This document shows positions 268-49,823 of a stretch of DNA of 64,000 bases, in pieces (the first letter of the stretch is position 1; every line of letters starts with the position of its first letter). This DNA comes from Pseudomonadota bacterium (GTDB lineage: Bacteria; Desulfobacterota; Desulfovibrionia; Desulfovibrionales; Desulfovibrionaceae), in contig JAHIUD010000030.1 of assembly GCA_018817515.1 (NCBI GenBank), positions 1 through 64,000 of the forward strand. Reading direction: 5' to 3'. The notes under the pieces are model-generated. The model was not told where the DNA came from. It worked only from the letters and a program-made list of their open reading frames with translations, and did not search any database. A program made the position numbers and the translations under genes.

Positions 268-276
268 GAGTAGAAC

Positions 277-555: not shown

Positions 556-566
556 GGAGCGCAAGC

Positions 567-899
567 ATGGAAGCCAAAGCTATCGCCAAGTACCTGCGCA
601 TTTCAGCGCGCAAGGTGCGGATTGTGGCGGAGAACATTAAGGGCAAGCCGGTTGAGGATGCGCTCAACATCCTGAAGTTCACGCCCAAGAAATCGGCTCA
701 GCTGATCAGTAAGGTGCTGTACTCGGCCATCGCCAACGCCGGACAGATGCCCGGCTGCGACGTGGACGCTCTCGTTGTGGGGAATGTGATGGTGAACGAA
801 GGTCCGACCCAGAAGCGCATCATGCCTCGCGCCATGGGCCGTGCCTACCGCATCCTCAAGCGCACCAGCCACATAACCGTCATCGTGAAGGAAAAGTAG
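567..899 (+). CDS. rplV: 50S ribosomal protein L22
   Basis: L22, 110 residues, an assembly protein whose beta-hairpin lines the peptide exit tunnel. Diagnostic pieces are [16 protein letters not shown] near the N-terminus and the tunnel-loop region [15 protein letters not shown] around residues 82-96. Normal length for the family. Starts 11 bases after rpsS with a GGGAGCG Shine-Dalgarno; rpsC follows. Confidence 0.98.
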
Positions 900-907
900 G
901 GGGCGCC

Positions 908-1546
908 ATGGGTCAGAAAGTACATCCGATCGGGTTCCGCCTGGGGTATACCAAGAACTGGCTTTCCCGCTGGTTCAGCAAGAAGGACTATCCGGCCTTC
1001 GTTCTCCAGGACGACCAGCTCCGTAAATACGTCAAGAAGAAGCTCTACCACGCCGGTCTCGCCAAGATCGAGATCGAACGTGCCGGCGGCAAGGTGCGCC
1101 TCGTGCTGCACACTGCCCGTCCGGGCATCGTCATCGGCCGCAAGGGCGCTGAGATCGAGAAGCTGCGCGACGACCTCAAGAAGGAATTCGGCCAGGACAT
1201 CACCATCGAGGTGACCGAGATCCGCCGTCCTGAGGTTGAGGCCCAGCTTGTGGCCGAAAGCATCGCCACACAGTTGGAGCGCCGCGTGGCCTTCCGCCGC
1301 GCCATGAAACGCACCGTGGCCCTGTCCCGCAAGTTCGGGGCCGAGGGCATCAAGGTCGCCTGCGCAGGCCGCCTGGCCGGTGCTGAGATCGCCCGCTCCG
1401 AATGGTACCGTGACGGCCGCGTGCCCCTGCACACCCTGCGCGCCGACATCGACTACGGTTACGCCACCGCCAAGACCACCTATGGCATCATCGGCGTCCG
1501 TGTCTGGATCTTCAAGGGTGAGATTCTTGACAAGGTAGGAAAGTAA
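908..1546 (+). CDS. rpsC: 30S ribosomal protein S3
   Basis: S3, 212 residues, sits at the mRNA entry channel of the 30S subunit. N-terminal [13 protein letters not shown] is diagnostic. A type II KH domain carries the GxxG-type loop [11 protein letters not shown] (around residues 75-85), and the C-terminal domain has the [10 protein letters not shown] motif near residue 155. Shorter than the 233-residue E. coli protein, with no extended tail. Only one base separates its stop codon from the start of rplP, indicating translational coupling. Confidence 0.98.
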
Positions 1547-1547
1547 C

Positions 1548-1963
<416 letters not shown>

Positions 1964-1964
<1 letters not shown>

Positions 1965-2158
1965 TGGACGCCAAGGAACTGCGGGCCCTGGACGCGGCCG
2001 AACTCAGCAACAAGCTGGTCGACCTGCGCAAGGAGCTCTTCAACCTTCGTTTCCAGCATGCCACTGCGCAACTGGAGAACACTCAGCGCATCCCCGCTGT
2101 CAAGAAAGTCATCGCGCGCATTCTGACCATTCAGACTCAGCGCGCAATGGGAGCATAG
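1964..2158 (+). CDS. rpmC: 50S ribosomal protein L29
   Basis: L29, 64 residues, a two-helix coiled protein at the exit-tunnel rim where trigger factor and SRP dock. The pattern [19 protein letters not shown] is typical of the family. Its ATG shares a base with the L16 stop codon, so it is presumably translated by coupling. rpsQ follows after 3 bases. Confidence 0.97.
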
Positions 2159-2161
2159 GCC

Positions 2162-2428
2162 ATGTCCGAGACGACTCACGAAAGCAACAGGCGGACTCTC
2201 ACCGGCGTCGTGGTGAGCGACAAGTGCGACAAGACCATTGTGGTCAGCGTCGCCACGCTCATCAAACATCCGCTGTTCAAGAAATACATTCGCCGCCGCA
2301 AGAAGTTTATGGCCCATGATCCCAACAACGACTGCGGGATCGGGGACACGGTAACCATCGTTGAGCACCGCCCCCTGAGTGCTCGCAAGCGCTGGCACCT
2401 GTCCAAAATCGTTGAGAAAGCGGTGTAG
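2162..2428 (+). CDS. rpsQ: 30S ribosomal protein S17
   Basis: S17, 88 residues, an OB-fold primary 16S rRNA binder. Conserved segments are the [16 protein letters not shown] strand near the N-terminus, [14 protein letters not shown] in the middle, and [19 protein letters not shown] toward the C-terminus. Three-base gap after rpmC; last gene of the S10 block before rplN opens the spc block. Confidence 0.98.
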
Positions 2429-2436
2429 GTGCAGCC

Positions 2437-2805
2437 ATGATCCAGAGCGAAACCAATCTCGACGTCGCCGACAACTCCGGCGCCAAGCTGTTGTGCTGCA
2501 TCAAGGTGCTCGGCGGCTCCAAGCGCCGCTATGCCTCGGTGGGCGACATCATCGTCGTGTCTGTCAAGGAAGCCATGCCCCATTCCAAAGTGAAGAAGGG
2601 CGCTGTGATGAAGGCCGTTGTTGTCCGCACCAAGAAAGAAGTTGGCCGTCCTGACGGTTCCTTCATCCGGTTCGACACCAACTCCGCCGTTCTGCTGAAC
2701 AACGCAAACGAGCCGCTGGGAACCCGCATCTTCGGACCCGTTGCCCGCGAGCTGCGTCTGAAGAACTTCATGAAGATCGTCTCCCTGGCCCCGGAAGTCC
2801 TCTAG
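2437..2805 (+). CDS. rplN: 50S ribosomal protein L14
   Basis: L14, 122 residues, forms intersubunit bridge B8 with 16S helix 14 and is the docking site for RsfS. Begins [17 protein letters not shown] and contains the signature block around residues 60-90 with VRTKKE and GSFIRFD. No clear promoter is visible in the 8-base gap to rpsQ, so the S10 and spc groups look co-transcribed here. Confidence 0.98.
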
Positions 2806-2837
2806 GACGACCGTAACAGGGACGTAAGGACAAAGTC

Positions 2838-3158
2838 ATGAACTGCAAGATTCGTAAAGACGACAAGGTTATGATCCTTGCCGGCAAAGACAAGGGTAAG
2901 ATCGGCAAGGTGATCAAGATCCTTCGTAAGAAGGACCGTGTTCTTGTCGAGGGCGCCAACAAGGTCAGCCGCCACACCAAGGCTAACCCGTACGCCAATC
3001 AGCCCGGCGGCATCGTGGAAAAGGAAGCCCCCGTACATGTCTCCAACGTCGCCGTGGTGTGCAATGCATGCACCAAGGCCACGCGCGTCGGCTACCGGGT
3101 GAATGAAGACGGCAAGAAAGTTCGCTTCTGCAAGAAGTGTAACGAAACCATCCAGTAG
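2838..3158 (+). CDS. rplX: 50S ribosomal protein L24 with C-terminal zinc ribbon
   Basis: L24, 106 residues, an early 23S assembly initiator with an N-terminal KOW motif ([16 protein letters not shown], residues 10-25). The C-terminal part has two CxxC pairs, VCNACTK and FCKKCNE, spaced about 23 residues apart, as in the zinc-binding (C+) form of L24; E. coli L24 lacks these cysteines. Preceded by a 32-base gap, larger than its neighbours have. Confidence 0.97.
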
Positions 3159-3166
3159 GTTGCGCC

Positions 3167-3706
3167 ATGAGACGCCTTGAAACAGTTTACAATGAGAAGA
3201 TCGCAGGCGAACTCAAGAAAGAGTTCGGCTACAAGAGCAGCATGGAGATCCCTCGCATGGAGAAGATCTCCCTGAACATTGGCCTGGGCGAAGCCAGCCA
3301 GAACCCCAAGCTCATTGACGCAGCCGTCATTGAGCTGACAAAGCTCGCTGGTCAGAAAGCCGTTGTCACCCGCGCAAAGAAGTCCATCGCGGCCTTCAAA
3401 CTGCGCGAGGGACAGCCCGTAGGTTGCCGTGTGACCCTGCGCGGAGAGCGCATGTGGGACTTCTACGACAAGCTCGTGAGCTTCGCTCTGCCCCGTGTGC
3501 GCGACTTCCGCGGCGTCCCTGACCGTGGCTTTGATGGCCGTGGCAATTTCACCATGGGCATCAAGGAACACACGATCTTCTTTGAACTGGAGATCGACAA
3601 AGTTGAATTGGTCAAGGGCATGAACGTCACCATCTCCACCACCGCGAAGACGGACAAGGAAGGCAAGCTGCTGCTCGACCTCCTTGGCATGCCTTTTAAA
3701 AAATAG
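3167..3706 (+). CDS. rplE: 50S ribosomal protein L5
   Basis: L5, 179 residues, carries 5S rRNA into the central protuberance and contacts P-site tRNA. Recognised by [16 protein letters not shown], the [15 protein letters not shown] block around residues 77-91, and the [19 protein letters not shown] segment near residue 115. Length equals the family norm. An AGGAGGAAA Shine-Dalgarno for the next gene, rpsN, begins at its stop codon. Confidence 0.98.
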
Positions 3707-3718
3707 GAGGAAACCGGT

Positions 3719-3904
3719 TTGGCCAGGACAAGTCTCAGGGTGAAAGCCCAACGCAAGCCGAAGTTCAAGGTCCGGGCTTACAATCGCTGCCCCATTTGTG
3801 GACGCTCCAGGGCATACTTGCGCAAGTTCGGCTGCTGCCGCATTTGCTTCCGCAACAAGTCCCTGGCCGGTGAACTCCCCGGCGTGCGTAAATCCAGCTG
3901 GTAA
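3719..3904 (+). CDS. rpsN: 30S ribosomal protein S14, zinc-binding type (TTG start)
   Basis: S14 type Z, 61 residues, located in the 30S head. Two CxxC pairs, CPIC near residue 24 and CRIC near residue 40, form the zinc ribbon of the short C+ form; E. coli has a 101-residue zinc-free form. It starts at TTG, chosen because AGGAGGAAA sits 8 bases upstream and the protein then begins [15 protein letters not shown], which fits the family. Followed by rpsH after 19 bases. Confidence 0.96.
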
Positions 3905-3923
3905 GTCCCAAGGAGATCTGATT

Positions 3924-4307
3924 ATGTCTGTTTCTGATCCCATTGCCGACATGCTCGCCCGCATCCGCAACGCGCACAGCGCCTTCCACTCTAATGTGGA
4001 GATGCCCGCGTCCAAGATGAAGGCGTCCATTGCCGAAATCCTCAAGGCTGAGGGTTACATTTCCGACTGCGCCAGTGCTGAGGGCAAGCTGAAGCTGACC
4101 CTTAAGTACGCCGCTGGCAAGTCCGCAATCCGCGGGCTCAAGAAGGTCAGCACCCCCGGGCGTCGCGTTTACGTGGGCGTGGATGACATCCCCAAGGTCC
4201 AGAATGGACTGGGGATTTGCATCCTCTCCACCTCGCGCGGCCTGCTCGCTGGTGCCCAGGCCACCGCCGATAAGATCGGCGGCGAACTCCTTTGTGAAAT
4301 CTGGTAG
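3924..4307 (+). CDS. rpsH: 30S ribosomal protein S8
   Basis: S8, 127 residues, a primary binder of the 16S central domain; in E. coli it is also the translational repressor of the spc operon. Starts MSVSDPIADMLARIRNA with an AAGGAG Shine-Dalgarno 8 bases upstream; the open frame extends further 5' but only into the rpsN region. The C-terminal block GLGICILSTSRGLLAG with the usual catalytically unimportant but conserved STSRG is present at about residues 95-110. Confidence 0.98.
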   Translation: MSVSDPIADMLARIRNAHSAFHSNVEMPASKMKASIAEILKAEGYISDCASAEGKLKLTLKYAAGKSAIRGLKKVSTPGRRVYVGVDDIPKVQNGLGICILSTSRGLLAGAQATADKIGGELLCEIW

Positions 4308-4318
4308 AAGAGGTAAAC

Positions 4319-4858
4319 ATGTCTCGTATCGGGAAAAAACCTGTTCCCATCCCTGCCGGGGTGGAGGTGAAAGTCGGCGCTGACGCCGTGCAGATCAAGG
4401 GCCCCAAGGGTTCCTTGTCCACCCCCGTGCATCCTTCCGTCACGTACGCGTTGGAAGGAAATGAAATGTTGGTGTCCCGGGTCGATGAGTCCCGTGTAGC
4501 CTGCGCTCAGCACGGTCTTCGTCGCACCCTTCTGGCCAACTGCGTCGAGGGTGTGACTGTGGGCTTCAAGAAGACTCTTGAGGTCATCGGCGTTGGCTAC
4601 AAGGTGGCAGTGCAGGGCAAGAGCGTCGTGCTCACCGTCGGCTTCTCTCACCCGGTGGAGTATCCTCTGCCGCAGGGTGTTGATGCTGTGGTTGAGGGCA
4701 ACAAACTGCATCTCACCGGCATCGACAAACAGCTTTTGGGTGAAGTGGCCGCGCAGATCCGACGTGTGCGTCCGCCCGAGCCGTATAAGGGCAAGGGCAT
4801 CAAGTACATCGAAGAACACATCAGGCGTAAGGCCGGCAAGTCCGGTTCTAAAAAATAG
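4319..4858 (+). CDS. rplF: 50S ribosomal protein L6
   Basis: L6, 179 residues, two tandem alpha/beta domains near the GTPase-associated region and the sarcin-ricin loop. Begins MSRIGKKPVPIPAGVEV and carries the C-terminal signature RRVRPPEPYKGKGIKY around residues 149-164. Normal length. RBS AAGAGGTAA precedes the ATG. Confidence 0.98.
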   Translation: MSRIGKKPVPIPAGVEVKVGADAVQIKGPKGSLSTPVHPSVTYALEGNEMLVSRVDESRVACAQHGLRRTLLANCVEGVTVGFKKTLEVIGVGYKVAVQGKSVVLTVGFSHPVEYPLPQGVDAVVEGNKLHLTGIDKQLLGEVAAQIRRVRPPEPYKGKGIKYIEEHIRRKAGKSGSKK

Positions 4859-4870
4859 CGGAGTGCGGCT

Positions 4871-5230
4871 ATGAAGATGACCAAAGAACAGGCGCGGCAT
4901 CGCAGGAAGCTGCGCATCCGCAAGAAGGTGAACGGAACCGAGAACAAGCCCCGGCTTGTGGTTTTTCGCTCCAACATGCACATCTACGCCCAGCTCGTGG
5001 ACGACGAGACCGGTTGCACCCTTGTCAGCTCTTCCACGCTGACCATGACCCGCGGCGGCGACGCCATTCGGGCCAACCTCGAGGGCGCTGCCAGTGTGGG
5101 CAAGGACATAGCGGAGAAGGCCAAGGCCAAGGACATCTTGACCGTAGTCTTTGATCGCAACGGGTACCTTTACCACGGCCGAATCAAGGCCCTTGCCGAC
5201 GGCGCCCGCGAGGGCGGCCTCAAATTCTAG
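4871..5230 (+). CDS. rplR: 50S ribosomal protein L18
   Basis: L18, 119 residues, binds 5S rRNA with L5. Basic N-terminus with [12 protein letters not shown], then the conserved [19 protein letters not shown] and a C-terminal [24 protein letters not shown]. Length and order (rplF-rplR-rpsE) match the canonical spc operon. Confidence 0.98.
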
Positions 5231-5244
5231 GGGTGGGTCTAAAA

Positions 5245-5736
5245 ATGGAACAGAATGATTCCGGCTTCATCGAGAAGATTGTGTATCTCAACCGCGTGGC
5301 CAAGGTCGTCAAGGGCGGCCGCCGGTTCAGCTTCAGCTGCCTGGTCGTCGTCGGCGACGGACAGGGCAAGGTCGGCTTCGGCCTGGGCAAGGCCAACGAA
5401 GTGCCTGAGGCCATTCGCAAGGCCACGGATCGCGCCCGCAAGGACATGATCACCGTGCCCGTGCTGGACGGCACCCTGCCTTACGAGGTCCTGGGACGCT
5501 TCGGCGCCGGCCGCGTCATGCTCAAGCCCGCCAGCCGCGGCACCGGCATCATCGCCGGCGGCCCGGTGCGTGCGGTCATGGAGGCCGTGGGCGTCCACGA
5601 CATCCTGACCAAGGCCATCGGCACCTGCAATCCGCACAACGTCCTGCGTGCCACCATGTGCGGTCTGGCTTCTCTGCGCAGCGCCGAGAGCGTCTCTGAG
5701 GTGCTCGGCAAGACGGTCTCCACCCCCAGGAAGTAG
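5245..5736 (+). CDS. rpsE: 30S ribosomal protein S5
   Basis: S5, 163 residues, at the mRNA entry channel; mutations here affect fidelity and spectinomycin response in E. coli. The N-terminal double-stranded-RNA-binding-like domain has [30 protein letters not shown] and the C-terminal domain has [14 protein letters not shown] chose the ATG at 5245, with GGTGGG upstream, over the in-frame GTG at 5233, because [11 protein letters not shown] is the usual S5 start length. Confidence 0.96.
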
Positions 5737-5769
5737 ACCCCAACCAGGGTCAGATAAGCGAGGTCCACC

Positions 5770-5943
5770 GTGTTTAAGATCAAACTCGTCCGTAGCCGCA
5801 TCGGTTGCACGCCCAAACAGCGCCAGACTCTGGACGCACTGGGCCTGAAGCACATCCGGCAGGAAAAGTCCTTTGAGGAAGCCCCCGCCATCGCGGGCAT
5901 GATCGCGAAAGTGAATCACCTGATTGAGGTTACCAAGTCATGA
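5770..5943 (+). CDS. rpmD: 50S ribosomal protein L30 (GTG start)
   Basis: L30, 57 residues, a small peripheral 50S protein. Translation from the GTG gives [20 protein letters not shown] followed by the L30 pattern LDALGLKHI and a C-terminal helix ending in VTKS. The GTG is preceded by GCGAGG. The stop codon overlaps the rplO start by four bases (ATGA), which implies coupled translation. Its size and place between rpsE and rplO make the call secure. Confidence 0.94.
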
Positions 5944-6386
5944 GACTGCACGAACTGTATCCCTTCCCGGAAGAGTACGCCCAGCGCAAGCGCGTTGGCC
6001 GTGGCCCCGGTTCCGGCACTGGCTGCACCTCCGGTCGCGGCAACAAGGGCCAGAACTCCCGCTCCGGCGGTGGTCGTCCGGCTTGGTTTGAAGGCGGTCA
6101 GATGCCTTTGGCCCGCCGTCTGCCCAAGCGCGGCTTCAAGAACCCGCACCGCGTGGTCTACGAGGCCATCAACCTTGATCAGCTGCTGGCGGCCTTCCCC
6201 GGCGTCGAAGAGATCACCATGGAAGCGGTCTACGCCCGTGGCCTGTGCAAGGGCGGCATGCCGCTCAAGGTGCTCTCCCGTGGCGATGTCACCGTCAAGG
6301 TGACCATCGAGGCCCACCGCTTCAGCGCAGCTGCGGCGGAGAAGATCACCAAGGCTGGCGGAACCGTCAAAGCTCTGGAAGGATAG
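5940..6386 (+). CDS. rplO: 50S ribosomal protein L15
   Basis: L15, 148 residues, a late 50S assembly protein with a long extended N-terminus that penetrates the rRNA. Glycine/arginine-rich region KRVGRGPGSGTGCTSGRGNKGQ at residues 20-40 and the FEGGQMPLARRLPKRGF block are diagnostic. ATG overlaps the rpmD stop by four bases; secY begins 5 bases after its stop. Confidence 0.98.
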   Translation: MRLHELYPFPEEYAQRKRVGRGPGSGTGCTSGRGNKGQNSRSGGGRPAWFEGGQMPLARRLPKRGFKNPHRVVYEAINLDQLLAAFPGVEEITMEAVYARGLCKGGMPLKVLSRGDVTVKVTIEAHRFSAAAAEKITKAGGTVKALEG

Positions 6387-6391
6387 TATCT

Positions 6392-7705
6392 GTGGCACTC
6401 TCCGGTGTTGAAAATCTCGCCCGACTGCCTGAGCTGAAGAAGAAGCTCATCTGGACCTTCGTTCTTCTGGCCGTTTACCGCCTCGGGATCCATATCCCGG
6501 TGCCGGGCGTGGACAGCCACGCGCTTACGGAGTTCTTCAACAGCGCTTCGAACACCCTGTTCGGCCTGTTCGACATGTTCTCCGGCGGCGGCCTGAAGAA
6601 GCTGTCCATTTTCGCACTGGGCATCATGCCCTACATCTCGGCCTCCATCATCCTGCAGCTCTTGTCCGTGGTCAGCCCCGAGCTGAAGCGCCTGAGCAAG
6701 GATGAGGGCGCCGAGGGCCGTAAGAAGATCACCCAGTACACCCGGTACGGCACGGTGCTCATCACCTGCATCCAGGGCCTGGGCGTGGCCGTCGGCCTTG
6801 AGAGCATGTCCAGCCCCACGGGCGCGTCCCTCGTGCTCTTCTCGGGCTGGGGCTTCCGCCTGGTGACCATGGTCACCCTGACGGCAGGCACCGTGTTTCT
6901 CATGTGGCTGGGCGAGCAGATGACCGAAAAGGGCATCGGCAACGGCATCTCCATGATCATCTTCGCAGGTATCGTGGCCGGGTTGCCCTCGGCTGTGATG
7001 AACACCGTGCGGCTGATGACGGCTGGTGAGCTCTCGCTCATCATCCTGCTGCTCATCGGCGCGCTCATGGCCGCCACCCTGGCCTTCATCGTGTTCGTGG
7101 AGCGTGGCCAGCGCCGCATCCCCATCCACTACGCCAAGCGCATGCTCGGACGTAAGATGGTGGGCGGTCAGACCACGCACCTGCCCTTGCGCATCAACAC
7201 CGCAGGCGTCATCCCCCCGATCTTCGCGTCGAGCATCCTGCTCTTCCCGGCCACGCTGGCGAACTTCTCCAGTGTCGAATGGCTGCAGCAGATGTCGCAG
7301 TACATGAGCCCCTCGTCGGTCTTGTACAACGTGGCCTTCATCGGGCTGATCCTGTTCTTCTCCTACTTCTACACAGCCATTCTCTTTGACCCCAAGGGGA
7401 TCAGCGAGAACATCCAGAAGCAGGGCGGCTTCATTCCTGGAATTCGTCCCGGGGCAAAGACCCGCGAGTTCATCGACCGCGTCCTGTCGCGCATCACCCT
7501 GTGGGGCGCTCTGTACATGTCCCTCATCTGCGTACTGCCCATGATGCTCATCAGCCAGTTCAACATTCCCTTCTACTTTGGCGGCACAAGCCTGCTCATC
7601 GTGGTGGGCGTGGCCATGGACTTCATGGGCAAGATCGAGTCCTATCTGATTTCGCGTCAGTACGAAGGTCTCATGGGCAACAAAGCCCGCGTCAAGGGCA
7701 GGTAA
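6392..7705 (+). CDS. secY: Protein translocase subunit SecY (GTG start)
   Basis: SecY, 437 residues, the channel-forming subunit of the Sec translocon in the inner membrane. Ten hydrophobic segments are evident; the plug region FDMFSGGGLKKLSIFALGIMPYI lies near residues 50-75, and the cytoplasmic loop RRIPIHYAKR near residue 250 is a known ribosome/SecA contact. GTG start with AAGGA 9 bases upstream; the open frame extends upstream only into rplO. Terminal gene of the classical spc operon, here followed directly by map. Confidence 0.97.
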   Translation: MALSGVENLARLPELKKKLIWTFVLLAVYRLGIHIPVPGVDSHALTEFFNSASNTLFGLFDMFSGGGLKKLSIFALGIMPYISASIILQLLSVVSPELKRLSKDEGAEGRKKITQYTRYGTVLITCIQGLGVAVGLESMSSPTGASLVLFSGWGFRLVTMVTLTAGTVFLMWLGEQMTEKGIGNGISMIIFAGIVAGLPSAVMNTVRLMTAGELSLIILLLIGALMAATLAFIVFVERGQRRIPIHYAKRMLGRKMVGGQTTHLPLRINTAGVIPPIFASSILLFPATLANFSSVEWLQQMSQYMSPSSVLYNVAFIGLILFFSYFYTAILFDPKGISENIQKQGGFIPGIRPGAKTREFIDRVLSRITLWGALYMSLICVLPMMLISQFNIPFYFGGTSLLIVVGVAMDFMGKIESYLISRQYEGLMGNKARVKGR

Positions 7706-7709
7706 CGGG

Positions 7710-8480
7710 TTGAAGAAAGCCAGAGGGATCTTTCTCAAGAACGAGAAAGAGATCGGTCTCATGCGAGAGGCCGGTCGCATCGTCTCCCTGATATTGGATG
7801 AAATCGGCCAGGCCGTGAAACCCGGCGTGCCGACAATGCTCTTTGAAGACATTGCCCGCAAGATGTGCGATCAGTTCAAGGTACGCCCGGCGTTTCTTGG
7901 CTACCTGGGCTTCCCGTTCGCCATCTGCTGTTCGGTGAATGAAGTCATTGTTCACGGTTTCCCTTCCAAGGAGCATATCCTGAAGGAGGGCGACATCGTG
8001 AGCGTGGACATGGGGGTGGTCGCCGGAGGGTTCCATGGGGACTCGGCGCGCACCTTCGCCGTGGGTAATATCAGTCAGGACGCCAGACGTCTCATGGACG
8101 TGACGAAGGAATCCCTTGATCGGGGCATCGCCCAGGCCCTGAGCGGTAAGAATCTCTACGAGATCAGTGCTGCCGTGCAGGACTGTGTGGAGAAGGCCGG
8201 GTTCGGAGTGGTCAGGCGTTTTGTGGGCCATGGAATTGGGGTGAAACTGCACGAAAAGCCGGAGATTCCGAATTTCGTGCCCAAGGGTTTGTCCGGGGTA
8301 ACGCTCAGGCCCGGGATGGTTTTGGCCATCGAACCCATGGTCACTGAGGGCAGTTATGATGTTGAGGTTCTTGAGGATCGCTGGACGGCGGTGACCAAGG
8401 ACCGCAAGCTGGCAGCCCATTTTGAGCATACTGTGGCGGTGACGGCGGACGGTCCTTTAATTCTGACCCGGAGTGGTTAG
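7710..8480 (+). CDS. map: Methionine aminopeptidase, type I (TTG start)
   Basis: Removes N-terminal Met from nascent proteins; a cytosolic dimetal hydrolase with the pita-bread fold, 256 residues. The five metal ligands are seen as D in VSVDMGV, D in HGDSART, H in VGHGIGVKLHE, E in AIEPMVTEG and E in FEHTVAVT. TTG start, 4 bases after the secY stop, gives KKARGIFLKNEKEIGLMREA, the usual N-terminus. The secY-map-rpmJ order is common in bacteria that lack adk at this place. Confidence 0.96.
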   Translation: MKKARGIFLKNEKEIGLMREAGRIVSLILDEIGQAVKPGVPTMLFEDIARKMCDQFKVRPAFLGYLGFPFAICCSVNEVIVHGFPSKEHILKEGDIVSVDMGVVAGGFHGDSARTFAVGNISQDARRLMDVTKESLDRGIAQALSGKNLYEISAAVQDCVEKAGFGVVRRFVGHGIGVKLHEKPEIPNFVPKGLSGVTLRPGMVLAIEPMVTEGSYDVEVLEDRWTAVTKDRKLAAHFEHTVAVTADGPLILTRSG

Positions 8481-8615
8481 AAAATGCTTGCCTTTCTCTG
8501 ATAAGGCATATATTTTCCTCCGTCTCAAGTTTGTGTGTGAAACGCTTGGCCCAAGGCCAGGCATAATGCTGAAGATTGGCGCTGGTTCTCAGTGCCGAGC
8601 AAAGTGGAGTAGGGC

Positions 8616-8729
8616 ATGAAAGTTCGGCCTTCCGTAAAGAAGATGTGTCCCAAGTGCAAAATCATCCGTCGACGCGGCGTTTTGCGGGTTATCTGCGAAG
8701 ATCCCCGTCACAAGCAGCGTCAGGGTTAA
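8616..8729 (+). CDS. rpmJ: 50S ribosomal protein L36, zinc-binding form
   Basis: L36, 37 residues, the smallest 50S protein, near 23S helix 91/97. Reads [20 protein letters not shown] and keeps the full zinc set C11, C14, C27 and H33 (C+ form). It lies 135 bases after map, so that gap may hold a leader or promoter; a CATAAT sequence around 8562 could serve as a -10 element but lacks a good -35. rpsM follows after 15 bases. Confidence 0.96.
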
Positions 8730-8744
8730 GAGAGGGGTACGAGA

Positions 8745-9122
8745 GTGGCTCGCATTGCTGGCGTTGATCTGCCCAGAAACAAGCGGCTGGACATCGCGCT
8801 GACGTACATCTATGGCATCGGCCATACGACGGCGCTTAAGATCCTCGACACTGTCGGGATCGATTGGACAAAGAATACCGATAATCTCTCCAATGAGGAC
8901 GTAAACCTCATTCGCGTGGAGATCGAGGCCAACCACAAGGTCGAAGGTGACCTGCGCCGCGATGTGACGCAGAACATCAAACGGCTTATGGACATTGGCT
9001 GCTACCGTGGCTTGCGCCACCGCAAGGGCCTGCCCGTGCGCGGACAGCGCAGCCACACCAATGCCCGCACCCGCAAGGGTCCGCGCCGCACCGTGATGGG
9101 CAAGAAGAAGCCCACCAAGTAG
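8745..9122 (+). CDS. rpsM: 30S ribosomal protein S13 (GTG start)
   Basis: S13, 125 residues, in the 30S head, forming bridges to L5 and 23S helix 38 and touching the P-site tRNA through its C-terminal tail. [21 protein letters not shown] at the N-terminus and the basic tail [21 protein letters not shown] are diagnostic. GTG start with GAGAGGGG upstream. First gene of the alpha-operon portion. Confidence 0.97.
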
Positions 9123-9154
9123 TCTCGGCTCAAGGCCTGGGCTACGCTGGATGA

Positions 9155-9174
9155 CGCCATGAGCGATCATGGCG
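9155..9174 (+). promoter_or_regulatory. Hairpin with GCGA tetraloop in the rpsM-rpsK gap
   Basis: In the unusually long 108-base gap between rpsM and rpsK, CGCCATGA (9155-9162) and TCATGGCG (9167-9174) pair perfectly around a GCGA (GNRA) tetraloop. There is no T-run, so it does not look like a terminator. It may be a leader element for autogenous control of rpsK-rpsD-rpoA, or a processing site. Function is inference only. Confidence 0.45.
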
Positions 9175-9230
9175 CGTCCGCATTTCCTGAATGACGTACA
9201 TCATCGCCTGCGGGCGAAGCGAGGACAGAC

Positions 9231-9617
9231 ATGGCTAAACCCCGTCGCACTGGGAAAAAGAAAGAGAAGAAGAGCATTCCTGTGGGCTTGGTCCACGTGC
9301 ATGCCAGCTTCAACAACACCATCATCTCCTTCACTGACCTGAAGGGGAATGTGGTGAGCTGGGCAAGCGCCGGCGCCGCCTTCAAGGGCTCCCGCAAAAG
9401 CACCCCCTTTGCCGCGCAGATCGCTGCCGAGACTGCCGCCCGCAAGGCGCAGGATTGCGGAATGCGTCTGGTCGGCATCTTCGTCAAGGGTCCCGGCTCC
9501 GGTCGCGAGGCTGCCATGCGCGCCATCAACAACGTTGGCATGAAAGTTAGCTTCATCCGCGACGTGACCCCCATTCCGCACAACGGCTGCCGGCCTCCCA
9601 AACGCCGCCGCGTCTAA
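9231..9617 (+). CDS. rpsK: 30S ribosomal protein S11
   Basis: S11, 128 residues, on the 30S platform at the E-site. [27 protein letters not shown] and the C-terminal block [17 protein letters not shown] are canonical; the conserved Asn-Gly of HNGC is the position isomerised to isoaspartate in E. coli. RBS is GCGAGGACAG. Its upstream gap is 108 bases, far longer than others in the cluster, and includes a GNRA hairpin. Confidence 0.98.
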
Positions 9618-9635
9618 AATCAAGGAGGAATCAAC

Positions 9636-10262
9636 TTGGCTCGTTACACCGAAGCGAAATGCAGGCTCTGCCGCCGCGAAGGCCAGAAGCTTTTCCTCAA
9701 GGGCGACCGCTGCTTCACTGACAAGTGCGCCTACGAGCGCCGTCCGTACGCCCCCGGCTTTGCCGGCAAGCTGCGCAAGAAGCTCACCGACTACGCCGTG
9801 CAGCTGCGTGAAAAGCAGCGTGTGCGTCGCATGTACGGCATCCTCGAAGGTCAGTTCCGCAACTACTTCGAGCGTGCTGAAGCCCAGAAGGGCGTCACCG
9901 GCGCGAACCTGCTCATTTTGCTTGAGCGCCGCCTGGACAACGTGGTCTATCGCCTTGGCTTTGCCAACTCCCGCGACCAGGCCCGCCAGATGGTCCGCCA
10001 CGGCCTGTTCGTGCTCAACGGCCGCAAGGTCAACATCCCGTCCCTCATGGTGCGTCCTACCGACGTCATCGAGGTGCGCGAGAAGAGCCGCAAGGTTCCT
10101 GTCATTACCGAGGCCCAGCAGGTTGTTGCTCGTCGCGGATGCCCCTCCTGGCTCGAGAGCGACGGCGCGGCCTTCAAGGGCGTGGTAAAGGCGCTGCCGA
10201 CCCGTGAGGATATCCAGTTCCCGATCAACGAGCAGCTCATCGTCGAACTGTACTCCAAATAA
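9636..10262 (+). CDS. rpsD: 30S ribosomal protein S4, zinc-containing form (TTG start)
   Basis: S4, 208 residues, nucleates 16S 5'-domain assembly; in E. coli it represses the alpha operon. N-terminal cysteines CRLC, then C32-type and C-type residues in [15 protein letters not shown], form the zinc knuckle of the C+ form. The S4 RNA-binding domain with [23 protein letters not shown] lies near residues 90-110. TTG start is supported by AAGGAGGA 7 bases upstream and by [12 protein letters not shown] fitting family N-termini. Confidence 0.97.
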
Positions 10263-10274
10263 GCAGGGGTAAGC

Positions 10275-11315
10275 ATGCTTATTCAAAACGGTGACAAGCT
10301 TATCAACACACGCAACTGGTCCGAGCTGGTAAAGCCGGAACAGCTCGCGCGCGACCCCAAGTCCACCGAGATGTATGGTAAGTTTGTGTGTGAGCCCCTT
10401 GAGCGCGGATTTGCCACCACCATTGGCAACTCCCTGCGTCGGGTGCTCCTGTCCTCCCTCCAGGGCGCGGCCATTGTCGCCGCGCACATCGAGGGCGTGC
10501 AGCACGAGTTCACCACCGTCAAAGGTGTCCTTGAGGACGTGACCGAGATCGTCCTCAACCTGAAGCAGGTGCGCCTGGCCATGACCAGTGTCGAGCCCCA
10601 GAAGTTGGTCCTTGAGGCCAAGAAGAAGGGCCCGGTCACGGCTGGCAACATCAAAGAGAACCAGAACGTCCGCGTGCTCAACCCCGAGCAGCACATCGCC
10701 ACCCTGTCCGAGGACCGTGAGTTCCGCATGGAGCTTGAGATCCGCATGGGCAAGGGCTACGTGCCTTCGGAAATGCACGAGGGACTCGAAGACGAGATCG
10801 GGCTCATCACCCTGGACGCCAGCTTCTCGCCCGTGCGGAAGGTTGCCTACATGGTGGAGCAGGCCCGCGTTGGCCAGATGACCAACTACGACAAGCTCCT
10901 GCTCGAAGTCTGGACCGATGGTTCGCTGTCTCCCGAGGACGCCGTGGCCTACAGCGCCAAGATCCTCAAGGACCAGCTGTCCGTGTTCATCAACTTCGAC
11001 GAGACCTCCTCGGACAAGAAGAAGAGCGCCGACAACGACCTCGACCTCAATCCGAATCTGCTCAAAAGCATTGATGAGCTTGAGCTTTCCGTGCGCGCTA
11101 CCAATTGCCTCAAGGCCGCCAACATCGCCTACGTGGGCGAGCTGGTGCAGCGCACTGAAGCCGCCATGCTCAAGACCAAGAACTTTGGCCGCAAGTCCCT
11201 GGACGAGATCCGCCGCGTGCTCGAAAGCATGGACCTGCGCTTCGGCATGACCGACGAGACCTCCGAGAAGAAATTCCAGGAATTGCTCAAGAGGAAAGAA
11301 AGAAATGAGGCATAA
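10275..11315 (+). CDS. rpoA: DNA-directed RNA polymerase subunit alpha
   Basis: RNA polymerase alpha, 346 residues. The N-terminal dimerisation domain has the hallmark [19 protein letters not shown] (about residues 45-65); the C-terminal domain, which binds UP elements and activators, has [17 protein letters not shown] and [18 protein letters not shown]. The 3' end overlaps the rplQ start by 11 bases. Part of the alpha operon. Confidence 0.98.
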
Positions 11316-11889
11316 TAAGTCCGGAAGAAAGCTGAACCGGAACAGCTCGCACCGCAAGGCCATGTTCAAGAACATGGCGCGGGCGGTCATGGCCCACGAG
11401 ACCATCCGCACCACCGAGGCCAAGGCCAAGGAACTGCGCGCAGTCGTCGACGGCCTTATCACCCTGGCCCTGAAGGACGATTTGTCCGCTCGCCGCCAGG
11501 CCTTCAAGATCCTGGGCAACCACAAACTGGTGCAGCACCTGTTCGACAACGTCGGACCGCGCTACGCTGGCGGTCAGGGCGGCTACACGCGCATCGTGAA
11601 GCTCTCCACTGTGCGCCCTGGCGATGCGGCACCCATGGTCATCTTTGAGTTGACCAAGCTTGCCGAGAAGAAGGTCGAGGCTCCTGCTGAGGCTCCCAAG
11701 GCCGAAGCCAAGCCCACGGAGAATTCCGCGGACAAGGCTGAGGAGAAGGCTGAAAAGCCTGCCAAGGTCGCCAAGCCCAAGGCCGCAGCCAAGCCCAAGA
11801 CCGACAAGCCCAAGACCGACAAGCCCAAGGCTGAAAAGCCCAAGGCCGCACCGAAGACCACCAAGGTCCAGAAGAAAGCCACAGTCTAG
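11305..11889 (+). CDS. rplQ: 50S ribosomal protein L17 with long Lys/Ala/Pro-rich tail
   Basis: L17, 194 residues. The first ~115 residues are standard ([38 protein letters not shown]). The last ~75 residues are a low-complexity basic/acidic tail of KAE, KPK and PKTDKPK repeats ending KKATV, resembling histone H1-like tails and absent from the ~127-residue E. coli protein. The tail is in frame with no stop and keeps the host GC bias. The ATG lies within the 3' end of rpoA. Last gene of the ribosomal cluster, followed by a terminator. Confidence 0.96.
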
Positions 11890-11914
11890 TATCTACATTC
11901 AGTTGCAAGTAATT

Positions 11915-11944
11915 GAGGGGTGGCTATCGCCACCCCTCTTTTTT
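11915..11944 (+). terminator. Rho-independent terminator of the ribosomal cluster
   Basis: GAGGGGTGGC (11915-11924) pairs perfectly with GCCACCCCTC (11929-11938) around TATC, followed by six T. It lies 25 bases after the rplQ stop and closes the ~12 kb S10-spc-alpha transcription unit. Confidence 0.95.
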
Positions 11945-11999
11945 GTCTTGCGCCATCAGCTAAACTGATGTAATACGCTCCTCATATCGGAGGGTACCA

Positions 12000-12896
12000 A
12001 TGGACTTTCGCAAGCTAGAGGCCTTCTGCAAGGTCTACGAACTGAAAAGTTTTTCCAAGGCTGGACTTGAGTTGCAGCTCTCCCAGCCAACCATCAGCGC
12101 CCACGTGGCCAACCTTGAGGAGGAGCTGGGCGTTCCCCTCTTCGACCGTCTGGGACGCACCGTGCTGCCGACCCAAGCTGGTGAAGTTCTCTATAGGGGG
12201 GCGAAGCAGGTCTTTCAACAGGTGGGGCGCATCAACTCCGAAATCGGCCTTTTGCGCGACATGGTCGTTGGCGATCTGCTCCTTGGCGGCAGCACCATCC
12301 CGGCCAACTACATCCTGCCGAACCTGCTCAAGAGCTTTCTGGCGCTGTACCCCTCCCTGCGCGTGCACCTGACCATCGGCGACACGGATTCCATCATCTG
12401 CCAGGTGGGACAGGGACGCCTGGAGCTGGGCATTGTCGGTTCTCAGCCGGAGCAGCAGGGCATCGCCTTCTACCCCTTGCGCCGCGACGAACTCGTGCTC
12501 GTGGCCGCCGCAGACATCGCCTCGGCCAGGCCGGCCCCCAAGTCCCTCAAGGACCTGCGCCCCTGGCCCTGGATCCTGCGCGAGCGCGGCTCCGGCACGC
12601 GCCGCTATCTGGAGACCCTGCTCAAGGGCGCGGGCATGTCCATTGGCGAACTCAAGGTGTCCTTGTGGGTGGAAAGCACCGAGGCGGCCTTGCAGTGCTC
12701 CCGGGCGGGACTCGGCGTGAGCGTTGTCTCGCGCCTGGCGGCGCAGCCGTATCTTGACCGTGGCGAGCTGGTGGCCTTGGACGTCATGCCCCAGGTGCTG
12801 GAGCGCTCCTTCTACCTCATCCAGCGCCAGGGCCGGGAGCTTCTGCCTGCGGCGAACCTGTTCATCGAACACGTGCGCAATTCCGCTGGCGGCTAA
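12000..12896 (+). CDS. LysR family transcriptional regulator
   Basis: 298-residue LysR-type regulator. The winged helix-turn-helix covers residues 1-60 (MDFRKLEAFCKVYELKSFSKA, LSQPTISAHVANLEEELG) and the effector-binding domain about 88-295. The N-terminus resembles the LysR subgroup often annotated as associated with selenium metabolism, but no selenium genes are here, so I leave the target open. ATG start with GGAGGG just upstream. It stands alone between the ribosomal terminator and the convergent mqnA. Confidence 0.9.
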   Translation: MDFRKLEAFCKVYELKSFSKAGLELQLSQPTISAHVANLEEELGVPLFDRLGRTVLPTQAGEVLYRGAKQVFQQVGRINSEIGLLRDMVVGDLLLGGSTIPANYILPNLLKSFLALYPSLRVHLTIGDTDSIICQVGQGRLELGIVGSQPEQQGIAFYPLRRDELVLVAAADIASARPAPKSLKDLRPWPWILRERGSGTRRYLETLLKGAGMSIGELKVSLWVESTEAALQCSRAGLGVSVVSRLAAQPYLDRGELVALDVMPQVLERSFYLIQRQGRELLPAANLFIEHVRNSAGG

Positions 12897-12956
12897 ATTC
12901 GCTCGTAATCACTGATCTGGCGGCCGTCCCTCAGGCGGTCGCCAGACCTGTGATGT

Positions 12957-13835
12957 TCAGTCCAAAGCGAGAAATTCCAGCTTCGGCACAGACGCGATGA
13001 CTCCGGTCTCGGCCAGCATCGCGTAGAACAGCTTCAGCCCAGCCAGTTCCTCCGCCCCCAGGTCGTAGACCAGCCCATCGAAGTAGGAGCGCATCTCCAG
13101 CTCTGTGAGGATGCTGTCTCGCGCCGCCACGGCGGAGATTTCCGGAAGATTCGCCTGTCCCCATTTCTTGGCCTCGATGAGCAGCCGGGCCCCGGCCTGG
13201 ATCTCCCTCCGCCTCTTGTCCACTGCCTCCCTGCTGGCGATCCACAACCCGAAGATGAAGGGCTGGCCGGTCCATTGCCGCCAGGCCTCGCCCAGGTCCA
13301 TGCGCTGCGGGTAGTCCGGGTGCTTGCGCAGGTTGAGGGCCTCGTCACCGATGCACAGGATGGCCTCGGGCCGCTCGCCCGCCGCCAGGAACGCTGTGGC
13401 GTCGCCGGTTTGGTAGCGCGGGGTCACGCCGATGTGGCGCTTGAGCAGCAGGTCCACCAGGGCCGCCGAGGTGTGCGTCTGGGCGCTGACCAGGATGGTC
13501 TGGCCGTCCAGGTCCTCGGGCCTGTTGCGGCAGAGCAGCAGCACGCTCTGCACCGGGCCCCGGCTGCCGATGGCCAGGTCCGGCACGATGAGGTACTTTT
13601 CCGGGTGGCGCGCGTACTCGATGCACGAGCAGCCCGAAAGGTCCAGCCGCCCCTGGTCCATGAGGACGTTGAGCGCAGCGGGCGGGCCGGGCACCAGCTC
13701 GAAATCCCCGGTGAGCACGCCGGTCTCCAGCGGATAATGCAGGGGCAGCACGTTCAGGTAGCCGATGCGGCCCAGCCGGATGCGGCCCTGTTGGACGCGG
13801 CCCTGTTGGATCAATGCGTTGGCGGTGGTCGTCAT
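12957..13835 (-). CDS. mqnA: Chorismate dehydratase MqnA (futalosine pathway)
   Basis: 292 residues; dehydrates chorismate to 3-enolpyruvylbenzoate, the first committed step of the futalosine route to menaquinone. It belongs to the periplasmic-binding-like MqnA/MqnD family; RIGYLNVLPLHYPLE at the N-terminus, SGCSCIEYARHPE and ILVSAQTHTSAALVDLLL are typical. ATG at 13835 shares a base with the mqnC stop (TGATG), so I reject the longer upstream frame. N-terminal residues 9-20 hold a short repeat of QQGR. Last gene of a TetR-mqnE-mqnC-mqnA unit. Confidence 0.93.
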   Translation of the reverse strand: MTTTANALIQQGRVQQGRIRLGRIGYLNVLPLHYPLETGVLTGDFELVPGPPAALNVLMDQGRLDLSGCSCIEYARHPEKYLIVPDLAIGSRGPVQSVLLLCRNRPEDLDGQTILVSAQTHTSAALVDLLLKRHIGVTPRYQTGDATAFLAAGERPEAILCIGDEALNLRKHPDYPQRMDLGEAWRQWTGQPFIFGLWIASREAVDKRRREIQAGARLLIEAKKWGQANLPEISAVAARDSILTELEMRSYFDGLVYDLGAEELAGLKLFYAMLAETGVIASVPKLEFLALD

Positions 13836-14905
13836 CAGGCCTGGCCCACCAGCCGGTAATCCATGCGCCGTTGGCGCGGCTCGAACCCAGCGGCGCGCAC
13901 CAGCGTGTCGATCTCCGCCTGGGAGAGCCGGAAGCTCACCCCAGCGGCGCGCACCACGTTCTCCTCGATCATGGTCGAGCCGAAGTCGTTGCCGCCAAAA
14001 TACAGCGCCAGCTGCGCGATCTTTGGGCCCATGGTGACCCAGGACACCTGCACGTTGTCCACGTTGTCCAGCACCAGGCGCGCCAGCGCCAGCATGCGCA
14101 GATACTCCGGGCTGGTGAGCGGCCGGGCGACGATGTTGGTGTTGTCCGGCTGGAAGGTCCAGGGGATGAAGGCCGTGAAACCTCCTGTCCTGTCCTGGCT
14201 CTCGCGCACGGCGAACAGGTGCTCCAGGCGCTCCTCTGGTGTCTCCTCGTGCCCGAACATCATGGTTGCCGTGGTGCGCAGCCCCTGCGCGTGGGCCTCT
14301 TCCATGACGGCGAGCCACTGGCCTGACGGGCACTTGTTGGGCGAGACCTTGCTGCGCACGTTGTCCACCAGGATCTCGGCCCCGCCGCCGGGGATGGAGT
14401 CCAGTCCAGCGGCCTTCAGCCGTTCAATGACCTGCGCCGTGGTGAGCCCAGAAATCTTGGCGAAGTGTACGATCTCCGGGGGCGAGAAGGCGTGCACGTG
14501 GATGTCGTAGTTGGCCTTGATGTAAGCCAGCATGTCCTCGTACCAGGACAGCGGCAGGTCCGGGTGGTGCCCGCCCTGCATGAGGATCTGCGTCCCGCCA
14601 AGGGCGATGGTCTCCGCAATCTTCTCACCGATCGCCTCAAAGCTGAGCACGAAGCAGTCCTCGTGGCCGGGCGCGCGGAAATAGGCGCAGAAGCGGCAGG
14701 CGCAGACGCAGACGTTGCTGTAGTTGATGTTCCGGTCCACCACGTAGGTCACGATGGGCTGGGGATGCTTGCGCAGGCGCACGCGGTGCGCAGCAAAGCC
14801 GAGGTCGTGCAGGCCGGCTTCGCGCTGGAGCAGCCGGGCCTCGTCCAGGGTCAGCCTGCGGCCCTCGGCCGCCTCATCGAGAATCTGCTGGATGTTCTGG
14901 CTCAT
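13835..14905 (-). CDS. mqnC: Cyclic dehypoxanthine futalosine synthase MqnC (radical SAM)
   Basis: 356-residue radical SAM enzyme that cyclises dehypoxanthine futalosine in menaquinone synthesis. The [4Fe-4S] motif is CVCACRFC (CxxxCxxC) at about residues 66-73, preceded by the family-typical VDRNINYSNVC. Other marks are the QGGHHPDL and SIPGGGAEIL blocks. An AGGAGGCC Shine-Dalgarno lies inside the 3-base gap region after mqnE. It uses the product of MqnE after hydrolysis by a nucleosidase not found in this window. Confidence 0.95.
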   Translation of the reverse strand: MSQNIQQILDEAAEGRRLTLDEARLLQREAGLHDLGFAAHRVRLRKHPQPIVTYVVDRNINYSNVCVCACRFCAYFRAPGHEDCFVLSFEAIGEKIAETIALGGTQILMQGGHHPDLPLSWYEDMLAYIKANYDIHVHAFSPPEIVHFAKISGLTTAQVIERLKAAGLDSIPGGGAEILVDNVRSKVSPNKCPSGQWLAVMEEAHAQGLRTTATMMFGHEETPEERLEHLFAVRESQDRTGGFTAFIPWTFQPDNTNIVARPLTSPEYLRMLALARLVLDNVDNVQVSWVTMGPKIAQLALYFGGNDFGSTMIEENVVRAAGVSFRLSQAEIDTLVRAAGFEPRQRRMDYRLVGQA

Positions 14906-47890: not shown

Positions 47891-48449
47891 ATTTCGCCAA
47901 CCTCAGTTATGCCCGCCATTCCAGGCCTGCCGCCAGTCAGCCCGAAAATCCATTGCATTTACGACGGAAGATGGTGTTCCTTTTCAGTGTGCTGTAAGTG
48001 CCTACCCGCCTGTGACTTTCTGGCCGCAACCGTTGGTATGTGGGAAGCCGCACAAATCCGCCGGGATTGGCCTCATAGCGCCAAGCGTGAGCAGGCGCGG
48101 TGTTTGCGGCAGGTGCCGCGCACCCCTGAATGTTTCACAGGTTTCATGCACCCTCGAAAATTGCCCTGTGCTGAAATATGCTTTAATTTTTCGAAATACA
48201 TCGAAATTTGGACTTGACCATGTTTAAAATTCTTTACACAGGATTCCCGCAGGATCGCCACAGGGGGTATGTGAACCTAGGTGGAGCAAGCATTCCTGGT
48301 ACGTATACGTTTTTGCCACCATGCTATTTGTATCATATGAATGACGTAAAATCAGGTGGTTATGTTGTAGAGAAACGCGGCCAGTCCTGGACAGCTTCCG
48401 GCCTGCGTCAGCTTTGTTCGATCGATCCCCAAAGCGTAGACCTCGCTTC
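47891..48449. other. AT-rich gene-free region upstream of the dnaA paralogue
   Basis: About 560 bases without a convincing gene. From about 48150 to 48350 base composition shifts to AT-rich (for example AAATATGCTTTAATTTTTC), unlike the rest of the window. Contains a dyad at 48189-48206, TTGACC at 48215 and imperfect 9-mers with two mismatches to the DnaA box. A short open frame (48220-48453) is present but lacks a ribosome-binding site. Confidence 0.6.
48189..48206. promoter_or_regulatory. Dyad upstream of the dnaA paralogue
   Basis: TTTCGA (48189-48194) and TCGAAA (48201-48206) are exact inverted half-sites with a 6-base spacer in the AT-rich region, about 240 bases upstream of the dnaA-like start. 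A candidate regulator site; nothing confirms it. Confidence 0.4.
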
Positions 48450-49823
48450 ATGAATGCGGACCTTTGGCAAAAATTGCTCACCATCCTCGAAAATCGACTG
48501 GAACAGGGGTTATTCACCCTCTGGATCAAGCCGCTTGATGCCAAGGTCGAGGACAATGTCCTGCACCTTTCTGCCCCCAATGAGTTTGTGGCGGCCTGGG
48601 TGCGCGACCGCCTTCTGGAGACCATCCGCGAGGCCGCTCTGGAACTGACGGGCCGCCGCATCGAGATCATGGTCAGCGTGGGACAGCGCCGCCCCCCGGT
48701 GCTAGCGGCGCCTTCCCCGGTTGCTCTCCAGGCTTCCCCCCAGTCCCGAACCCGCCCCGCAGCAGAGCCCCTGGGCCTGCCGCTCGGCCATGCGCCGCGC
48801 ACCGAGTCCCTGAGCCGCTGGCGCTTCCGCTTCGACGACTTCGTGGTCGGCCCTTGCAACGAGCTGGCCTGCGCCGCAGCCAAGGGCCTGTGCAACAACT
48901 CACTGGATACGGACCACCTGTTCCTCAGCGCCGGGCCGGGCCTGGGCAAGACCCATCTGCTGCACGCCATTGGCCGCCACCTGGCCGAGCGCTCCAACCG
49001 CAGCCGGGTGTCCATCGCCTGCCTCTCGGCCGAGGAGTTCACCACGCGTCTGGTGCTGGCCATCAAGGCCAGGGAGGCCGCGCGCTTCAAGGCCGAGTTC
49101 CGCGAGTCCGTGGACGTGCTGCTCCTGGAGGACATCCACTTCTTCCAGGGCAAGGGCAAGCTCCAGGAGGAGCTCCTGCTGACCCTGAAGGCTCTGCAGC
49201 AGCGCGGCTGCAAGGTGGTGCTCACCAGCTCCTTCCTGCCCCGCGAGCTCTCCGACGTGGATCCGCAGCTGGTGTCCTGTTTCGCCTCGGGCTTCATGGC
49301 CCTGATGCAGGCCCCGGACTACGCCACACGCGAAGAGATCATCCGGCGCAAGGCCCGTTCGCTCCAGGTCCAGGTGCCGGACAACGTCACCGGGCTATTG
49401 GCCGAGCGCCTGACCACTGACATCCGCCAGTTGGAAAGCTGCCTGAACAACCTGGTGCTCAAGGCCCGGCTGCTCGGCCAGCAGATCACCGAGGAGTTGG
49501 CCTGGCAGGTGCTTGAGAACTACGCCGTGCAGGTCCCCATGCCGGGCGTGGAGCGCATCGTGGCCTTTGTCTGCAAGACCTACGGCATCGACGAGCGCGA
49601 GCTGAAATCGAAATCGCGCAGCCAGCAGACCGTCCTCGCCCGCAACACCGCCTTCTATCTTTGCCGCCGTCACACCGACCTCTCCCTCGCCGCCATCGGC
49701 GACCGCCTGGGCCGCAAGCATTCCACAGTGCTCAAGGGCATCATCCACGTGGAGCGCGAGATCGCCCACCAGACGCCGCTGGGCAGACAGCTCGGCAACA
49801 CCGTGGACCGCCTCCTGGCCTAG
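48450..49823 (+). CDS. DnaA-like protein with lost box VII arginines (paralogue)
   Basis: 457 residues with all DnaA domains: N-terminal domain (MNADLWQKLLTILENRLEQG), variable linker, AAA+ domain with Walker A GPGLGKTH near residue 161, Walker B LLLEDIHFF near 227, sensor II Arg in DIRQLES, and domain IV. Oddities: box VII reads VDPQLVSCF where E. coli has VEDRLKSRF, so both Arg281 and Arg285 equivalents are Gln and Cys; and the DNA-contact RDHTT motif is RKHST with one residue missing beside it. Not next to dnaN. ATG 48450 gives the natural start. Probably not the chromosomal initiator. Confidence 0.9.
   Translation: MNADLWQKLLTILENRLEQGLFTLWIKPLDAKVEDNVLHLSAPNEFVAAWVRDRLLETIREAALELTGRRIEIMVSVGQRRPPVLAAPSPVALQASPQSRTRPAAEPLGLPLGHAPRTESLSRWRFRFDDFVVGPCNELACAAAKGLCNNSLDTDHLFLSAGPGLGKTHLLHAIGRHLAERSNRSRVSIACLSAEEFTTRLVLAIKAREAARFKAEFRESVDVLLLEDIHFFQGKGKLQEELLLTLKALQQRGCKVVLTSSFLPRELSDVDPQLVSCFASGFMALMQAPDYATREEIIRRKARSLQVQVPDNVTGLLAERLTTDIRQLESCLNNLVLKARLLGQQITEELAWQVLENYAVQVPMPGVERIVAFVCKTYGIDERELKSKSRSQQTVLARNTAFYLCRRHTDLSLAAIGDRLGRKHSTVLKGIIHVEREIAHQTPLGRQLGNTVDRLLA

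Follow-up and report, generated by a model that had tools for sequence, protein, structure and literature searches.

In the textbook view, DnaA assembly depends on ATP through a switch formed by the contact between ATP and the arginine finger, and the dnaA gene considered here, located in a window of 64,000 nucleotides (the whole stretch of DNA analysed) from a Desulfovibrionaceae genome, encodes a protein lacking this residue, which raises the question of whether such a DnaA is still a replication initiator. A preliminary description of the window had read VDPQLVSCF where E. coli has VEDRLKSRF, and alignment to E. coli K-12 DnaA, whose numbering is used for residue equivalences unless stated otherwise, bore this out, with Gln273 of the window protein in place of Arg281 and Cys277 in place of the finger Arg285. 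The same alignment upheld the retention of Walker A and of the sensor II Arg (R326 in the window protein), as well as the altered domain IV motif, GRKHST for GGRDHTT, in which one residue is missing and Asp433 is replaced by Lys. The neighbours are likewise those described, namely an HSP20 protein on one side and a TsaB-like protein (Pfam TsaD match; TsaB/TsaD family) on the other, with no dnaN adjoining.

The reading frame, from the ATG at 48450 to the stop codon at 49821-49823, encodes a full-length protein with the DnaA architecture of domain I, AAA+ and DnaA HTH, matching Pfam DnaA_N (4.2e-13), Bac_DnaA (6.4e-37) and Bac_DnaA_C (2.2e-22) and comprising domains I, III and IV (Table 1). The best structural matches of its AlphaFold2 model (mean pLDDT 89.5, pTM 0.58, residues 82-110 poor) were the DnaA structures 8btg, 1l8q and 2z4r, determined by crystallography and cryo-EM. 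Against the equivalog model TIGR00362 the protein scores 340.1 bits, just under the cut-off of 343.9; the dnaN-linked DnaA of the same genome reaches 299.8 and a sole DnaA of the sister family f82 333.2. The AAA+ fold is shared with Hda/HdaA, but Hda models cover the AAA+ and lid part only, whereas the window protein also has domains I and IV, and it scores 74 bits against Hda at a cut-off of 194.8.

Table 1. Features of the dnaA locus in the window (positions of the window)
Feature	Position	Strand	Basis or conservation
DnaA-box-like site TGTTTCACAGG	48131..48141	.	identical in 13/13 aligned upstreams (own genome and 12 congeners)
Degenerate inverted box pair TGTTTAAAA...TTTACACAGG	48221..48242	.	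conserved in part within the genus
Box-like site TGTAGAGAA (reverse complement TTCTCTACA)	48366..48374	.	in 12/13 aligned upstreams
Probable promoter TTGTTC, 17 bp, TAGACC	48414..48442	+	inferred; for the most part conserved within the genus
dnaA, short-loop subfamily (W type), 457 aa	48450..49823	+	ORF, Pfam and tree
Domain I (DnaA_N, residues 4-63), Trp6 present	48459..48638	+	Pfam and alignment
AAA+ domain (Bac_DnaA, residues 125-283)	48822..49298	+	Pfam
Walker A GPGLGKT (residues 162-168)	48933..48953	+	alignment
Codon CAG, Gln273 in place of box VII Arg281	49266..49268	+	alignment
Codon TGT, Cys277 in place of arginine finger Arg285	49278..49280	+	alignment
Domain IV helix-turn-helix (residues 367-431), loop one residue shorter, Lys423 for Asp433	49548..49742	+	

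The window protein shares with canonical DnaA (E. coli, B. subtilis; TIGR00362) the three domains I, III and IV, the Walker A, sensor II and H-motif, and the equivalents of Arg227, Lys243, Arg399 and His434, but differs in the replacement of Arg285 and Arg281, in Walker B (ED, E227-D228, for DD), in sensor I (Ser for Asp269), in the shorter HTH loop with its Asp433 to Lys exchange, and in not lying beside dnaN. Trp6, the Walker A Lys and Val211 are also retained. The residues of the single-strand-binding H/B motifs (Val211 and Arg245), Lys243 and the AID-1 residue Arg227, whose roles in E. coli are described in PMC5742627, are thus represented throughout, with Lys replacing Arg245.

In the genome of origin (114 contigs, 95% complete) the DnaA ATPase family and the DnaA HTH family each have two matches, and the other dnaA, which had been predicted to lie beside dnaN, was found there on contig C56 in a dnaA-dnaN-gyrB-gyrA cluster that contains the sole dnaN detected in this assembly; the gyrB and gyrA assignments are presumptive. 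The window type (W) and the dnaN-linked type of the order (N) score 72-115 bits against each other in BLAST, versus at least 534 within W and at least 222 (mostly >400) within N. Among 197 family genomes searched for the HTH domain, irrespective of copy type, 178 yielded a pair, 18 a single copy and 1 no copy, and the window protein had a strong match (E < 1e-70) in 188 of the 197. Throughout the window's genus (14/14 genomes) the W frame is open over nearly its entire length and contains no stops. Rechecking of 18 family genomes in which one type seemed to be missing recovered the full W in 9, of which G052, G116, G133, G156 and G006 are 96-100% complete and gave one HTH copy each. G168 carries part of W, at the end of a contig, and W was absent from the remaining 8; these include G011, G022 and G079, which contain N and are 98-99% complete. 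Such absences in draft genomes are weak evidence, because no DnaA was detected in G181, which is 99% complete, and in G037 the contig stops within N. D. vulgaris has two annotated dnaA genes. The main text of an RB-TnSeq paper on this species (PMC10102598) does not name dnaA.

Phylogenetic analysis of 98 DnaAs (LG+R4, 328 columns of domains III-IV; one G273 gene entered twice, as L252 and L387) united 62 sequences including W in a single clade with UFBoot 100, all of them with the short HTH loop, and placed the N type, also with UFBoot 100 and on a long stem, among canonical DnaAs. The conserved clade sharing the window protein's substitutions that had been foreseen does exist, and since Cys occupies the finger position in 15/15 distinct sequences of this clade, a sequencing error, raised at the outset as a possible refutation, is unlikely. 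The shortened loop is real as well, but not as a local loss, since it recurs in 142 of 143 distinct W sequences (the exception being L219) and is common to nearly the whole subfamily, which mostly has an altered Walker B too. As a sole marker of the subfamily the loop was rejected, because it also occurs in Thermotoga maritima and in L226 from Oligoflexia, which falls outside the 62-sequence clade, and is missing from the W-type L219. The HTH of T. maritima DnaA aligns with that of W without a gap (NRSHPVV), but this protein retains its finger, Arg251, a residue indispensable for unwinding (PMC10316083).

As part of the tree set had been picked for high W score, typing was carried out on 44 phylum genomes sampled separately, namely the own genome, one congener and 42 others, with G214 locus L453 (no typable protein) and weaker HTH matches (ORFs of 90-346 aa) set aside. 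Canonical DnaA alone was present in 23 genomes, short-loop DnaA alone in 15, both in 4 (including the own genome and the congener) and two canonical DnaAs in 2. Within the flanks examined, dnaN adjoins 29 of 31 canonical versus 0 of 19 short-loop genes. The W type is therefore not the odd one out that it had been taken for, its subfamily being the only typed DnaA in about a third of these genomes. Two canonical-type DnaAs, one without dnaN in the flank examined, were observed in G211 (L443, L449) and G247 (L384, L419). Two dnaA genes per genome are also described for Acidaminococcus fermentans (PMC4403523), but there both belong to the dnaN cluster, whereas here they are distant and represent two subfamilies. 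A search of titles and abstracts in open-access PMC gave no paper on a pair of DnaA subfamilies in these bacteria.

The two types retain different residues, as counted over distinct sequences of the order (143 for W, 79 for N). Trp6 is found in 140 W versus 0 N, Lys243 in 141 versus 0, Arg227 in 135 versus 3, Val or Ile at 211 in 136 versus 3, and Lys or Arg at 245 in 138 versus 16 (13 of them Arg), although single columns in the 211-245 region depend on the alignment because N has diverged there. Conversely, the box-contacting Asp433 is present in 0 W versus 73 N and Arg285 in 88 W versus 76 N, and the sensor II Arg and Walker A Lys are invariant in W (143/143). Contrary to the first impression, it is thus the dnaN-linked copy, not W, that is more degraded for initiator residues. 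Mean column identity is 52% over 33 W and 43% over 21 N sequences, the genus sets being not identical. The dnaN-linked protein of the own genome gave no Pfam DnaA_N match at E 0.001, and those of G191, G035, G400 and G412 (L288, L289, L295, L296) align over domains III-IV only, so that domain I seems, as judged from these alignments, to have been lost there. A separate ORF consisting of DnaA domain I only (TIGR00362 positions 1-76) lies ~110 bp downstream of W dnaA in G083 of genus g8 (L108:4909-5613) and is possibly a domain-I decoy or adaptor; as an Hda-like protein it was rejected, since the family search matched DnaA domain I and not Hda.

Loss of the finger is not confined to the window's clade. 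Position 285 in the 143 W sequences is occupied by Arg in 88, His in 18, Cys in 16, Gln in 9, Tyr in 7, Leu in 2, Ser in 2 and Asn in 1, and parsimony on a FastTree tree of 143 W and 4 outgroups, built with the position 285 column left out, required at least 5 Arg/non-Arg changes, losses and possible regain being pooled. Six clades of this tree are entirely non-Arg; the replacing residue is fixed in 4 of them and predominates in the other 2. Arg is found in all aligned short-loop proteins of other orders, and the W type keeps it in 27 of 32 sampled family genera. The sister family f82, represented by one genus with one single-contig genome (G394), has W as its only full-size DnaA in 7/7 genomes, all with Gln at 285; other HTH matches there (3 genomes) are ORFs of 64-93 aa below the cut-off, and no DnaA lies within ~1.5 kb of dnaN in the 5 genomes checked. 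Within the own family, G052, a 99% complete draft, had only W detected, with His at 285, and six f79 genomes with a single DnaA (G411, G395, G403, G415, G420, G424) keep Arg. Residue 144 of the window protein corresponds to Ser in 76% of the W sequences with Arg285, and 5 of the 6 finger-less clades have Ala or Cys as the most frequent residue there, possibly a compensation for finger loss.

In the literature consulted, the finger is needed for unwinding or for ATP-dependent oriC activation in five species: it is required at oriC in E. coli (PMC5742627), T. maritima finger mutants fail to unwind (PMC10316083), and mutation of the finger impairs the DnaA proteins of S. elongatus, H. pylori and D. 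radiodurans (PMC8287927). The absence of the finger alone nevertheless does not imply that a protein is not an initiator, because the only full-size DnaA found in f82 lacks it.

The position of the origin was approached by GC skew computed from sampled 20-kb stretches, which pointed to the dnaN-linked copy in 3 of the 4 family genomes examined, G061 being without a clear signal. In G106 the skew passes from -0.062 on one side of N to +0.102 on the other, and both flanks of W are positive, the left one being sampled only at 3.40 Mb of the 3.65-Mb contig; a flip at N with none at W was found in G044 (-0.023 to +0.039) and G120 (-0.033 to +0.048). An origin at the window gene was ruled out by these three genomes, and the window's own profile has no flip at 48 kb. 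The skew in G394, which is without N, rises across dnaN from -0.046 to +0.006 and on to +0.059, with positive values to the left and right of W; in the congener G027, where only W was sampled, it is negative on both W flanks, and G411 was noisy with no clear signal. As the origin is indicated at the dnaN-linked copy, the W type would therefore act in trans. Contig C1 begins at W dnaA (first 300 bases onward) in the complete or nearly complete genomes G106, G142, G185, G078, G046, G071 and G409, and the skew origin of G106 lies ~1.3 Mb round the circle from W dnaA; genomes of this group that are rotated to 'dnaA' do not have the origin at base 1. Positions 1-14000 of the window have lower G+C (0.59-0.63) and a skew near zero versus the remainder, and could be a genomic island.

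On balance, these sequence comparisons favour the reading that the window gene probably encodes a genuine replication initiator, one that belongs to a second DnaA subfamily and works without an arginine finger. Its protein would bind ATP, and its domain IV would bind DnaA-box-like sites; it would assemble in trans on the dnaN-side origin via domain I, Arg227 and Lys243, grip single-stranded DNA with the Val211/Lys245 surface and recruit the helicase through domain I, without reading the neighbour's ATP through Arg285. The dnaN-linked DnaA looks like a specialised origin-side partner, which would mark the origin or regulate rather than be a self-sufficient initiator. Several points speak against this reading: G011, G022 and G079, with only the dnaN-linked copy, would argue that N can initiate alone, although genes can go missing in drafts; 13 of 79 dnaN-linked proteins keep Arg245; the f82 evidence comes from a single genus; and the finger is required in every DnaA with published data in the sources consulted. 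The wider history is a plausible but still doubtful one, in which the second subfamily, spread across the phylum, replaced or joined the canonical initiator, the finger was given up on some five or more occasions, one of them in a lineage for which no other full-size DnaA was found, and the tasks were split where both types remain. A natural initiator with neither finger nor another DnaA found would make the dispensability of the ATP switch directly testable, and W and N would offer a natural two-protein system to separate box binding, ATP sensing and single-strand capture.

The nearly complementary residue sets retained by W and N, the two DnaA HTH domains of most family genomes (178/197) and the presence of Arg285 in nearly all dnaN-linked proteins (76/79) would also suit one mixed orisome, with N giving box recognition and the finger in trans and W giving domain I and single-strand binding. 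Such a division is unlikely, however, as W itself also keeps Arg285 in most sampled family genera and a partner cannot be required in f82, where the finger is lost and no partner DnaA was found. A finger supplied by the dnaN-linked partner is likewise weakened as a general rule by f82.

The proposal of a DnaA-derived transcription regulator or anti-initiator, with the dnaN-linked DnaA as the initiator, was the one made in the preliminary description, and it fares slightly worse again. It would account for the loss of both Arg281 and Arg285 in the window's genus, for the origin at the dnaN-linked gene and for the draft genomes in which that type stands alone, but it conflicts with the phylum genomes whose only typed DnaA is of the short-loop subfamily and with the single-strand and domain I residues kept in W and mostly lost in N; nothing was found that points to an anti-initiator, and a role as transcription factor is conceivable. 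Decay of the window gene after replacement by the dnaN-linked copy, with the box VII changes as neutral erosion, would agree with the varied residues at 285 among clades, but is highly improbable given the open, stop-free frame in the 14 genomes of the genus searched, the fixation of Cys in the own clade, the invariant Walker A Lys and sensor II Arg, and the higher conservation of W than of N.

Conserved blocks span ~350 bp upstream of W in the genus (13 aligned), and near-canonical inverted box pairs occur at a comparable place upstream of W in several other genera. No canonical TTATCCACA box, with up to one mismatch allowed, was found in the sequence preceding the window gene. Box-like sites, defined as TTWTNCACA with at most 1 mismatch, number 39 in the 13 upstreams of the genus versus 12.4 expected (maximum 22 in 60 shuffles), 44 versus 16.8 in g5, and 91 versus 25.5 in other genera, where 4 of 27 upstreams that were cut or had an unclear start were left out. 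Exact TTWTNCACA sites upstream of N amount to 18 in 9 upstreams of the genus versus 0.3 expected and 5 in 10 upstreams of other genera versus 0.2. The box-like sites upstream of W suggest that the window gene is autoregulated by DnaA. The -10 element of the predicted W promoter ends 7 bp ahead of the ATG, and the W dnaA mRNA may be leaderless.
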